DNA of 64,000 nucleotides from Oscillospiraceae bacterium (lineage in GTDB: Bacteria; Bacillota; Clostridia; Oscillospirales; QAMX01), in contig SVLQ01000006.1 in the NCBI GenBank assembly GCA_015067825.1, forward strand, positions 1 through 64,000, in the 5' to 3' direction. Of the stretch, positions 18,417 to 52,638 are shown piece by piece. Position numbers and translations under genes: made by a program. The notes beneath the pieces are model-generated. The model saw only the letters and a list, made by a program, of their open reading frames with translations, did not search any database and was not told where the DNA came from. Position 1 is the stretch's first letter. Each line of letters opens with the position of its first letter.

Positions 18417-18445
18417 TTGATTCTGCTGCGAATTTATGATATAAT
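18417..18445 (+). promoter_or_regulatory. Promoter of the zinc-ribbon/repeat protein (and probably the RT unit)
   Basis: TTGATT, 17-base spacer, TATAAT. No other convincing promoter is seen between here and the reverse transcriptase. Confidence 0.7.
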
Positions 18446-18527: not shown

Positions 18528-20144
18528 ATGCCCATTCTGTCCATCCAATGCGACCTCTGCTCCGGTGAACTGCAGATGCTGCCGCACGGTCTCGGCGCAC
18601 GTTGTGCCGACTGCGGCATGGAGCACTCGTTTGCGCGCCTGCAGGAAAAGCTGGAGCAGGAAAAAGCGATCGCCGACAGTTTCACCGGCCGCGGCGATCC
18701 GCCGTCGGCACCCCACATTTGGCCGACCGAACCGCCCAAAACCGGTTTGGGCTGCGACCTCTGCTTCGGCGAGATCAAAATCTGCGAAGGCGGGAAGGGG
18801 CGCTGCGCGCTCTGCGGTGTGACCTACACGTTGGAGGATCTGCGCGCCAAGATGCAGGCCAAAAAGAGCGGTGTCCAGCCGGTAAAACCGGTTGTTGAAC
18901 CGCCGAAACCCATCGTTGAACCGGTAAAACCCATCGTTGAACCGGTAAAACCCGTGGTCGAACCGGTAAAACCCGTGGTCGAACCGGTAAAACCCGTGGT
19001 CGAACCGGTAAAGCCCGTGGTCGAGCCGGTAAAACCCGTGGTCGAGCCGGTAAAACCTGTCGTTGAGCCGGAATCCGTTGTTGAACCGCCTCTGCCGAAG
19101 AATCCGCCGTTTTGGATGCCGGTTGACAGCGTGTTTCCGATTTCCGGCGTCGGCGTCGTTGTTTCGGGTAAAATCATCGGCTCGATCTGCAGCGGTAACT
19201 TTGTGCAGACGGCGAACGGAAAACTGTGCGAGGTAAAGGCTGTTGAAGTCGACAAAAAGGTCTGCCAAACCGCGCAGACCGGCGAAACGGTCGGACTGTT
19301 GCTGGCGGGCGTCGACTGCACGCTGGACGGCACCGATTTCCAAATCGGCGACAAACTCATTGCGTCGGACGTTCAGCCGCCGAAGGATGAAGAAATTTTC
19401 GACGTTGAATTCACCCAGATCGACGCAGACGACTACACGGATGCGGAGTACACCGAGGTCGAATACACGGAAGTCGAGTATACGGAAGTGGAATCCACGG
19501 ATGCGGAGTACACCGAAGTGGAATACGTCGAGGTTGAACCCACCGAAGTGCAGAAGCCGTCGGTTGTCCCGGAGGGCTACAAACAGTTCCGCATGCAGGT
19601 CAACTCGACAGCCCACGGCAAGCTGAAAGGCACCGTGCTCGCCGGCACAATCGCGCCCAACGCCAACGTTTTCCTCAACGATACCACGCAGAAGGCGCGC
19701 GTGCTCACCTGCGTTCCGGCCGATCCCAAGGTCGGTCAGACCGTCACGCTGACACTTTCCTACTACTCCAAAGAACCCATCAAGCGCACCATCAAAACGA
19801 TCACCGGTATGCCCCAAACGAATGCGGCGGCCAACGATCTCTACGAATACGGCGGCACGGAAGAGCAGTATTTTGAAGAGCTTTTGCGCCGGAATTTCGC
19901 CGATTACGCGATCAGCAAAGGTCCGCAGGATCCCAACTGGAAGCAGACCTGTTCGTGGCTGCTCTCCAAGAACGGCAAGCCCGCTCTTTTGGTGATTGCA
20001 AGCACCAAACGTGAAGATCCGTTTGCCGGTGAAATTCGCAGCGAGATTTACGCCTACAAGGGCTATCGCAGTGTTCGCTTCTTCATGGAATTCCGCAACA
20101 AGGTCGACTTCGTGGTCAGCCGCATCCGCCAAGCTCTGGCCTGA
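18528..20144 (+). CDS. Double zinc-ribbon protein with repeat linkers and EF-Tu domain II-like barrels
   Basis: A 538-residue protein of unknown function. Two four-cysteine ribbons start it (CDLC..CADC, residues 8-29, and CDLC..CALC, about 76-97). Nine heptads of PVKPVVE type follow (about 118-181). Then comes a segment patterned on domain II of translational GTPases (about 192-280: VFPISGVGVVVSGKI, then VGLLLAGVD and GDKLIAS), an acidic EYTEVE repeat (about 302-340), a second weaker barrel-like segment, and a C-terminal domain I do not recognise (about 430-538). No GTPase domain, signal peptide or membrane helix is present. The start follows AGGAGG. It is immediately upstream of a structured RNA segment and a reverse transcriptase, with no terminator of its own between. 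Confidence 0.75.
   Translation: MPILSIQCDLCSGELQMLPHGLGARCADCGMEHSFARLQEKLEQEKAIADSFTGRGDPPSAPHIWPTEPPKTGLGCDLCFGEIKICEGGKGRCALCGVTYTLEDLRAKMQAKKSGVQPVKPVVEPPKPIVEPVKPIVEPVKPVVEPVKPVVEPVKPVVEPVKPVVEPVKPVVEPVKPVVEPESVVEPPLPKNPPFWMPVDSVFPISGVGVVVSGKIIGSICSGNFVQTANGKLCEVKAVEVDKKVCQTAQTGETVGLLLAGVDCTLDGTDFQIGDKLIASDVQPPKDEEIFDVEFTQIDADDYTDAEYTEVEYTEVEYTEVESTDAEYTEVEYVEVEPTEVQKPSVVPEGYKQFRMQVNSTAHGKLKGTVLAGTIAPNANVFLNDTTQKARVLTCVPADPKVGQTVTLTLSYYSKEPIKRTIKTITGMPQTNAAANDLYEYGGTEEQYFEELLRRNFADYAISKGPQDPNWKQTCSWLLSKNGKPALLVIASTKREDPFAGEIRSEIYAYKGYRSVRFFMEFRNKVDFVVSRIRQALA
18879..19070 (+). repeat. Nine-copy 21-bp in-frame tandem repeat
   Basis: Units such as CCGGTAAAACCCGTGGTCGA encode PVKPVVE-type heptads. 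Copies 4-6 are identical at the DNA level, pointing to recent expansion by slippage or recombination. The reading frame is kept throughout. Confidence 0.9.
19434..19541 (+). repeat. Acidic EYTEVE-coding degenerate repeat
   Basis: 12- to 15-base units of the GAGTACACCGAGGTC type, encoding repeated EYTEVE/ESTDAEYTEVE. More diverged than the 21-bp array in the same gene. Confidence 0.75.
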
Positions 20145-20163
20145 TCGGCCCATCTCAAATTGC

Positions 20164-20304
20164 AAAAAACAGAGGGAAACGCATTGCGCCTGTGAGGGGC
20201 CCAGCACAGACCTTTTTCCGACTTTGCAGGCAGTCGGTTTGTGTACGGTCCGGTAACGCCATACGATGCGTATGGCGCTTTAACGCATTTTCCCTCTGTT
20301 TTTT
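20164..20304 (+). ncRNA. Structured non-coding segment directly upstream of the RT (retron-like ncRNA candidate)
   Basis: A perfect 16-bp stem, AAAAAACAGAGGGAAA (20164-20179) with TTTCCCTCTGTTTTTT (20289-20304), closes a ~109-base interior. Three further hairpins lie inside: CTGTG/CACAG (20190-20209), CCGACT/AGTCGG (20218-20237), and a 9-bp CGCCATACG/CGTATGGCG with an ATG triloop (20257-20277). The segment ends 19 bases before the RT start codon. Long outer repeats around an msr/msd-like core beside an RT gene are the layout of retron ncRNAs. The alternative is a very large terminator or leader. Confidence 0.55.
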
Positions 20305-20323
20305 CTTTTTTCAGGAGAACGCT

Positions 20324-21538
20324 ATGGTACTTCTCTCTCAGCTCTTAAATCCGGATTGCTGGCAGGCACTTTTGGCGCACAAAAGCGAACACGGCCATCT
20401 GCCGCAGAGCGAACAAGCCGCGATGGAAACCTTCCTCGCCGACGAGGCCTACCGCCCGATCGTGGAATCGATGATGGCCGGCGAGGTGTTTCCGCCGCCG
20501 AGGAAGAGCGCGATCGGCAAAAAGGGATCGGAGAAAAAGCGTATTGTCTACATCTATCCGCCCGACTATAACCGCGTTTTGAAGCTGTTGGGCTTTTTGC
20601 TGCAGCGCCGCTACGACCATCTCTTCGCCGACAATCTCTATTCGTTCCGCTCTGCCCACGGTGTGCGTGAGGCGGTTCGAACGCTGACCTACAGCAAAAA
20701 CATCGGGAAAATGTGGGCATACAAAGTCGACATCAGCAACTATTTCAACTCCGTGCCCATAGAACGGTTGCTGCCAATACTCTCTGCGGCTCTGGCCGAT
20801 GCACCCGAAACCTGCCGATTCCTCACCGCACTGCTGACCAGCCGCACCGTGCTGGAAAAAGGCAGCCTCATCGAAGAGGACAAAGGGATCATGGCCGGTA
20901 CGCCGATCTCGCCGTTTTTGGCCAACCTCTACCTCGCCGATCTCGACCGCAAATTTGCCGATGCCGGTGTGCGCTACGCGCGCTATTCCGACGACATCAT
21001 CCTCTTTGCCGATTCCGCCGAAGCGTTGGAGCACCACATCGCCGCGCTGCGGGCGCATTTGGCCGAAGCCGGGCTTGCGATCAATCCGGACAAGGAGGAG
21101 TACAGCGCACCGGGCGAACCTTGGACATATCTCGGCATTTGCTACACGCACGGTGTGATCGACGTTTCGCCGGTTTCGGTGGAGAAGCTGAAGGCCAAAA
21201 TGCGCCGTAAGCGCCGCGCCCTCGCACGGTGGCAGGCCAAAAAGAATGTCACCGGCGTGCAGGCAGCCAAGGCGTTTGTGCGGGCATTTCACAGAAAGCT
21301 GTTTGAAAATCCGGTCGTCAACGATCTGACGTGGACGCACTGGTACTTCCCGCTGATCAACACCGCCGATTCGCTGCGCATCATCGACCACTACGCCCAA
21401 AGCTGCATCCGCACGCTCGCAACCGGCCGCAACACCAAATCTGCCTACAACTTCCGCTACGAAGATATCAAAGCCCTCGGCTACGAAAGCCTGGTTCACC
21501 ATTTCTACGCATACTGCGAAGAGCGTTCCGAACAGTGA
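20324..21538 (+). CDS. Stand-alone reverse transcriptase of unassigned class
   Basis: A 404-residue protein with the main RT motifs: KVDISNYF around Asp136, GTPISPFLANLYL (192-204), and the catalytic box YSDD (221-224) in RYSDDIILFA, followed by GLAINPDKE and the thumb-side WTYLGICY. There is no maturase, endonuclease or integrase domain, and no group II intron RNA is recognised around it. The retron NAxxH motif is not seen and the SQ signature of diversity-generating RTs is absent, so it belongs to a group II-like or unknown RT clade. The ATG at 20324 follows AGGAG. A hairpin-rich non-coding segment lies directly upstream and a zinc-ribbon protein before that. Confidence 0.85.
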   Translation: MVLLSQLLNPDCWQALLAHKSEHGHLPQSEQAAMETFLADEAYRPIVESMMAGEVFPPPRKSAIGKKGSEKKRIVYIYPPDYNRVLKLLGFLLQRRYDHLFADNLYSFRSAHGVREAVRTLTYSKNIGKMWAYKVDISNYFNSVPIERLLPILSAALADAPETCRFLTALLTSRTVLEKGSLIEEDKGIMAGTPISPFLANLYLADLDRKFADAGVRYARYSDDIILFADSAEALEHHIAALRAHLAEAGLAINPDKEEYSAPGEPWTYLGICYTHGVIDVSPVSVEKLKAKMRRKRRALARWQAKKNVTGVQAAKAFVRAFHRKLFENPVVNDLTWTHWYFPLINTADSLRIIDHYAQSCIRTLATGRNTKSAYNFRYEDIKALGYESLVHHFYAYCEERSEQ

Positions 21539-21614: not shown

Positions 21615-21644
21615 CACCGGATCGTCACAGATCCGGTGTTTTTT
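21615..21644 (+). terminator. Terminator between the MATE promoter and its gene
   Basis: CACCGGATC..GATCCGGTG stem (21615-21638) then six T. It lies downstream of the MATE promoter and 27 bases before the start codon, so it may be an attenuator rather than only the RT-gene terminator. Confidence 0.8.
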
Positions 21645-52484: not shown

Positions 52485-52638
52485 CAGCATGGGTGATATT
52501 GTGCAGCCCTGCGATTCTGCCCTGCGCAACGGCGACCCGCGAACCATGTCAGGCGGGGAACCGAGCAGCATTAAGTGGGATTCGCAGTGTGCCGCAGCCA
52601 GCAGGTTACAGGGCTGCACAATGTCTCTCGTGCTTTTT
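52485..52638 (+). ncRNA. ffs: Signal recognition particle RNA
   Basis: Ends pair perfectly over 14 bp (ATTGTGCAGCCCTG with CAGGGCTGCACAAT). The apical domain IV carries the conserved GTCAGG..GAGCAGCA with a GGAA tetraloop closed by CGG/CCG (about 52548-52570). It has a consensus promoter and a terminal T-run (52633-52637). The position directly upstream of dnaX is the classic Gram-positive order. It binds Ffh to target membrane proteins. Confidence 0.93.

Follow-up and report, generated by a model that had tools for sequence, protein, structure and literature searches.

A UG26 reverse transcriptase locus with a pseudoknotted RT-5 RNA and a partner protein of lineage-variable architecture

Results

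Components of the locus

The stretch of DNA analysed here, hereafter the window, comprises 64,000 nucleotides (nt) of an Oscillospiraceae bacterium (GenBank assembly GCA_015067825.1, contig SVLQ01000006.1, positions 1–64,000). On its plus strand it carries, in this order, an open reading frame (ORF) for a partner protein (18528–20144, 538 amino acids), a structured RNA (20164–20304, 141 nt) and a reverse transcriptase (RT) gene (20324–21538, 404 amino acids). A first-pass annotation, made from the DNA letters and their ORFs, had proposed an undescribed RT system. By profile matches, however, each of the three components falls in an already catalogued family: UG26 of PADLOC for the RT, RT-5 of Rfam for the RNA and RTasCOG2852 of PADLOC for the partner.

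The UG26 reverse transcriptase

Profile searches and alignment place the RT in UG26. It is a single-domain RVT_1 protein with a YSDD box and without the retron NAxxH motif, and in these respects it is as first described; a CAGGAG ribosome-binding site lies 5' of the gene. The PADLOC model RT_UG26 is matched end to end (530 bits, about residues 1–398), whereas the next-best RT model reaches 121.6 bits and every non-UG26 PADLOC model, those for retrons and group II introns included, scores 122 bits or less. The next-best UG models are UG27, UG4, UG17 and Drt9. Compared with solved defence RTs, the UG26 profile is closest to the 9ioa series (1.1e-19), which, going by the entry codes, we take to be DRT9, and then to Drt2. 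In a tree that also includes group II intron RTs, DRT2, UG17, one retron and unassigned RTs, UG26 forms one clade (support 99/98).

Among 89 UG26 RTs, the catalytic box is YSDD in 87 and YLDD in two, and a basic segment at about K288–R302 is nearly invariant. A C-terminal pair of tyrosines (positions 394 and 395) is conserved in 91% and 97% of the sequences, respectively; most have YY, and the window has Phe-Tyr. DRT9 and DRT10 prime DNA synthesis on C-terminal residues, tyrosines in the former and a serine or tyrosine in the latter (PMC12483538, PMC12632851), so the UG26 pair is, by analogy, a candidate priming site.

Structure of the RT-5 RNA

The RNA, including its outer stem P1, spans 20164–20304 on the plus strand, with the Rfam core at 20184–20291 and P1 delimited by folding and covariation. 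The core matches RT-5 (RF03026) over the full model (positions 1–104) with 81 bits (E = 2.2e-14; gathering cut-off 45.7 bits). A 141-nt segment closed by a perfect 16-bp stem and ending 19 nt before the RT start codon had been described at the outset, and this is exact: P1 pairs 20164–20179 with 20289–20304, and the ATG is at 20324. The region 20162–20308 folds with -60.2 kcal/mol, compared with -40.4 ± 4.1 kcal/mol for shuffled sequences (z = -4.85, 0/200). The interior had been drawn as three hairpins; it is instead composed of a stacked arm (P2-P3-P4), a hairpin (P5) and a pseudoknot in which a 5' strand pairs with the P4 loop. Alignment and pair counts locate both pseudoknot strands on the plus strand: GCCUGUG (20188–20194; consensus GCCUGCG) and, in the P4 loop, UGCAGGC (20225–20231; consensus CGCAGGC).

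Structure counts were made on a structure-blind alignment of 66 RT-5 RNAs. Over the whole structure (P1, P2/P3, P4, P5 and the pseudoknot), 92.1% of the cells pair, compared with 82.2% in shuffles and 38–48% when strands are slid; the slid controls preserve relatedness and the shuffles do not, and both agree. Compensatory changes in the helices had been named beforehand as a test of the RNA, and changes on both sides were found at 37 of 45 pairs. For P1, double changes occur at 12 of 13 pairs, and its figure for paired cells is conservative because sequences whose 5' arm is shorter, as it is in the window, sit shifted by one in the alignment. All seven positions of the pseudoknot pair in 66/66 sequences, with double changes at four pairs (0/500 shuffles) and nine double-change cells against 0.7 in shuffles. 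Both P1 and the 7-bp pseudoknot are absent from the RF03026 consensus, and both covary.

Most members have a short P5 hairpin. P5 is greatly lengthened in one locus (L043), and small hairpin-like insertions occur between P1 and the pseudoknot strand in the 5' linkers of four others (L091, L094, L102 and L107); these additions mark the places where the RNA tolerates insertion.

Two unpaired stretches are candidate templates. One is the UUUAA-type linker that leads from P5 to the 3' arm of P1 (20278–20288, plus strand), proposed solely from its position and the analogy with DRT10 (PMC12632851). The other is the P3-P4 junction (20213–20219, plus strand), the least conserved and length-variable part of the alignment. 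We also considered a DRT10-like A-B-A' template beside P5, which looked striking in some members (e.g. GGATTTAAGGATTT and GGTTTTAACGGTTTT) and exceeded naive shuffles, of which one in 5,000 was as high. On the RT tree, 3.1 coincident changes were counted against 2.3 expected, and because this tree-based control was not beaten, the A-B-A' template is not claimed.

Architecture of the partner protein

Profiles, alignment and structure prediction indicate that the window partner (plus strand) contains two CxxC..CxxC zinc-ribbon-like units, an EPVKPVV repeat, one or more EF-Tu-domain-II-like barrels and a C-terminal RTasCOG2852-type domain (about residues 436–537). A repeat, a zinc ribbon and an EF-Tu-domain-II-like part had been recognised in the original reading of this ORF. 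The seven-residue unit EPVKPVV forms an in-frame array at 18880–19075 of the window, and an acidic YTEVE repeat follows at about 19430–19540.

The match between residues 436–537 and positions 67–166 of the RTasCOG2852 model (PDLC03793) is weak (20.6 bits, E 1.1e-4). A small partner from another locus (L032) matches the same model over its full length with 195 bits, which indicates that the partner usually found with UG26 is RTasCOG2852, of which the window protein is an enlarged relative. In the small partners (150–200 amino acids), the N-terminus is a short conserved helix (MSLLSKLFGG...) whose mean hydrophobic moment is 0.38, compared with 0.23 in shuffles. A low-confidence linker comes next, and then a constant domain that carries the YLRFYYDHEGWWNTR motif. 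By alignment, the partner is a constant C-terminal domain attached to N-termini that are exchanged between lineages, and the large partner of the window is a lineage variant. Zinc-ribbon N-termini occur in the window, L042, L044–L046 and L051, a helix together with a zinc ribbon occurs in L035 and L041, and the window has the EF-Tu-like barrel, which alignment also places in L042, L044, L045 and L047. One contig (C10 of genome G076) carries two distinct UG26 cassettes (L034 and L035) about 55 kb apart, and their partner types differ.

The constant domain is predicted to fold as helix-strand-strand-strand-helix-strand-helix, an order also predicted for the C-terminus of the window protein. The alpha-beta-beta-beta-alpha-beta order of the PD-(D/E)XK/COG2852 core is present in both partner models, with structural Z scores of at most 6.7, where values below 8 are not proof. 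Structural neighbours of the small-partner domain are mostly nuclease-fold proteins (the I-Bth0305I catalytic domain at Z 6.7, TIP26, EcoT38I and VRR_NUC), and the window model also matches I-Bth0305I. Foldseek returned nothing under E 0.001 for the partner, and its profile had no match among solved structures. The catalytic D + (D/E)xK set was not found: only one Glu (in VVEL) is invariant in the small partners, the preceding strand has no conserved acid, and no conserved Lys follows. In the window partner the VVEL position reads LLVIAST, so that the Glu is absent and the nuclease catalytic set is wholly missing. Cleavage by the partner is therefore unlikely, and the models suggest that the C-terminal domain is probably a nuclease-like fold that is catalytically dead.

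Co-occurrence of the three components

Among 394 genomes surveyed within the order, 11 contain RT-5 RNA, in 12 copies; the same 11 contain UG26 RTs, either full or cut by a contig end. Every complete UG26 locus of this survey has the RNA; one further genome (G319) carries only a broken UG26 RT fragment. When about 85,000 species genomes were scanned, at least 500 relatives emerged. The best 80 of these, our named loci, all carry the names of Clostridia-type bacteria, and most were sampled from animal gut and rumen. Two named loci (L078 and L081) are cut by contig ends, which leaves 78 testable loci. With a covariance model built here, RT-5 was detected upstream of the RT in 74 of the 78, displaced in two of them, and L101 retains only a degraded remnant. 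An RT present everywhere without the upstream RNA had been named as the result that would count against their association, and this is not the pattern observed. The first-pass annotation had suggested that the upstream gene could be the RT's partner, and it does accompany the RNA in 80 of the 85 loci that carry RT-5, its end normally lying no more than about 70 nt away.

Scanning viral contigs with a single sequence gave no relatives; a profile scan of viral contigs recovered a divergent branch, which lies inside the UG26 clade of the RT tree and also ends in ..YYK. Its three members (L122, L123 and L124, from IMG/VR) score about 300 bits at 30% identity, RT-5 RNA was not detected in them, and the next downstream gene encodes a cold-shock-domain-like protein (GVVKSFN..GYGFISC) in 3/3. 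Relatives sought in phages and plasmids proved to be distant RTs only, several of the plasmid ones being annotated as group II intron RTs.

Transcription unit and surroundings

The partner gene, the RT-5 non-coding RNA (ncRNA) and the RT gene constitute a three-part UG26 cassette that is probably transcribed as one unit. A sigma-70-like promoter candidate for the whole unit lies at 18417–18445 (consensus scan: TTGATT-17-TATAAT, 10/12, TG before the -10 element), and an intrinsic-terminator-like hairpin (9 bp and a T run) at 21615–21638 is a candidate for its end, both on the plus strand. Given these consensus matches 5' and 3', a single transcription unit comprising all three parts is feasible. 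Promoter-like sites are as numerous as expected by chance (1.3), and the call at 18417–18445 is one of position only. A terminator scan found no terminator-like site on the plus strand between the partner ORF and the RNA, in agreement with the initial description.

Elsewhere in the window, an ordinary bacterial small SRP RNA (RF00169, 70.5 bits) is encoded at 52513–52611. Other Rfam RT-n families gave no match in one UG17, one DRT9 (stop-interrupted) and three DRT2 loci. In another locus (L028), Rfam RT-18 (RF03021) was detected at 1403–1481, directly 5' of a YLDD RT without a good fit to any PADLOC UG group (Drt3a 85 bits, UG17 79 bits).

Discussion

Proposed function

Class 2 UG RTs frequently adjoin ncRNAs, and an RT gene with an adjacent structured ncRNA is a criterion for this class (PMC12039810); the UG26 locus has both. 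Class 2 DRTs use the adjacent ncRNA as a template (PMC12039810, PMC12483538, PMC12632851, PMC13174585), and the systems studied so far copy it into repetitive complementary DNA (cDNA) (PMC13174585). In DRT2, a pseudoknotted ncRNA wraps around the thumb of the RT (PMC12039810). As UG26 has the same kit of RNA, auxiliary protein and RT, with a different partner, it may likewise make ncRNA-templated, probably protein-primed antiphage DNA. By this analogy, we propose that the UG26 cassette acts in the manner of a Class 2 DRT that has an auxiliary effector or sensor, with RT-5 serving as the cis-encoded template or scaffold, and we assign this interpretation a probability of about 0.65. One alternative offered at first, an unknown RT class using an adjacent RNA, was right in that a stand-alone, non-retron RT appears to work with an adjacent structured RNA, as covariation and strict co-occurrence argue; the class itself is a known one, UG26.

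In the proposed mechanism, the RT would bind RT-5, with P1, the pseudoknot and P5 fixing the RNA on the enzyme, and DNA synthesis would start on the RT's own C-terminal tyrosine. In response to phage, a short unpaired part of RT-5 would be copied into repetitive cDNA, as the Class 2 RTs DRT2, DRT9 and DRT10 do. The constant C-terminal domain of the partner may bind either RT-5 or the DNA product, its exchangeable N-terminus (an amphipathic helix, or a zinc ribbon and barrel) may carry out or localise the response, and the DNA product, together with the partner or by way of it, would act against phage. More tentatively, UG26 with RT-5 could be another Class 2 defence system that makes a product of its own, namely protein-primed repeat cDNA that is templated by a short stretch of the pseudoknotted, roughly 140-nt RNA and sensed or used by a dead-nuclease partner with a lineage-exchanged N-module (amphipathic helix, zinc ribbon or translation-factor-like barrel); this fuller version is possible, though we would not favour it over its negation.

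Several observations weigh against the proposal of a Class 2-like cassette. Three UG26 RTs (L053, L104 and L114) have neither RNA nor partner, with the reading frame open, and five of the 85 RNA-bearing loci have no partner. The A-B-A' repeat scarcely exceeds its tree-based expectation, as described above. The window neighbours are housekeeping-type genes (GH116, MatE, LexA-like, tRNA synthetases), with no obvious defence island.

Alternative explanations

RT-5 could instead be a cis-regulatory leader of the RT gene, an attenuator or autoregulatory site, with the RT acting on another RNA or template-free. Its position is compatible with such a role, as the RNA ends 19 nt 5' of the ATG with the ribosome-binding site between, and a U run after P1 could terminate transcription. 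However, where the RNA is displaced from the RT by about 0.6 kb (L050) and 1.35 kb (L110) it still scores 139 and 115 bits, and this conservation speaks for a trans-acting RNA rather than a leader. Attenuation, moreover, would not require a fold of about 137 nt that is pseudoknotted and has near-invariant loops, and an RNA downstream of the partner gene would leave the whole unit outside its control. We therefore regard a leader as unlikely. A role as scaffold only, in which RT-5 organises or inhibits the RT, DNA is made without an RT-5 template and the partner is a toxin under the scaffold's control, is in our judgement comparably unlikely, if anything a little more so. It would account for unpaired segments that are far less conserved than the core loops and helices and for a template repeat that could not be demonstrated, and an ncRNA role in oligomerisation has been reported for DRT9 (PMC12489045), whereas in the Class 2 systems studied so far the ncRNA is the template (PMC13174585).

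The first-pass annotation had also raised a divergent retron, which would make RT-5 the msr/msd, P1 the a1/a2 repeat and branched msDNA the product. A closed inverted repeat just 5' of a stand-alone RT does resemble a retron, but the remaining evidence makes this highly improbable. Retron models from PADLOC and NCBIfam score the window RT at about 58 bits at most, against 530 bits for UG26; NAxxH and VTG occur in only 2/89 and 4/89 UG26 RTs, as by chance; and the retron RT falls outside the UG26 clade in the tree, where its own branch is very long. The RNA has no long variable msd hairpin in the place of the short P5.

Comparison with known systems

RT-5 was reportedly defined by Weinberg 2017 and UG26 by Mestre 2022. 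Original family descriptions aside, we found no published function or experiment on UG26 in the literature searched, and among the relevant papers a full-text search returned only a viral survey that lists UG26. The window RT does not differ from PADLOC RT_UG26, being the same family end to end, and its RNA belongs to RF03026, whose model lacks the P1 and pseudoknot found here. With RTasCOG2852 the window partner shares the C-terminal domain and the position upstream of the RNA; it differs in its length (538 amino acids compared with 150–200) and in having zinc ribbons, a repeat and a barrel in place of the amphipathic helix.

DRT10 (UG17) resembles UG26 in its three parts (an ncRNA of about 137 nt, an auxiliary protein and an RT) and in a conserved C-terminal hydroxyl residue (PMC12632851), but its partner is a SLATT protein, its order is ncRNA-SLATT-RT, and its A-B-A' template is not supported in UG26; the UG17 locus among our comparisons (L135) gave no Rfam match. 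DRT9 (UG28) and DRT2 (UG2) likewise combine an RT with an adjacent structured ncRNA, which in DRT2 is pseudoknotted, and DRT9 primes on C-terminal tyrosines (PMC12039810, PMC12483538). Their RTs belong to groups other than UG26, the poly-U template of DRT9 has no universally conserved counterpart in RT-5, and the 280-nt ncRNA of DRT2 is twice as long as RT-5. Retrons share the inverted repeat that closes an RNA 5' of a small RT, and differ in RT motifs, RT family and RNA.

Added here to the catalogued families are the strict co-occurrence of RNA and RT, the covarying P1 and pseudoknot, the domain architecture of the partner and the conserved C-terminal tyrosine pair of the RT. Two catalogues are thereby joined, Rfam RT-5 being the RNA of PADLOC UG26, a group that is common in gut and rumen Clostridia. 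DRT2, 3, 9 and 10 make quite different DNA products from their adjacent RNAs. For UG26, a direct test is now possible because a bounded RNA with its pseudoknot and P1, a candidate priming tyrosine, candidate templates and the partner domain are given.

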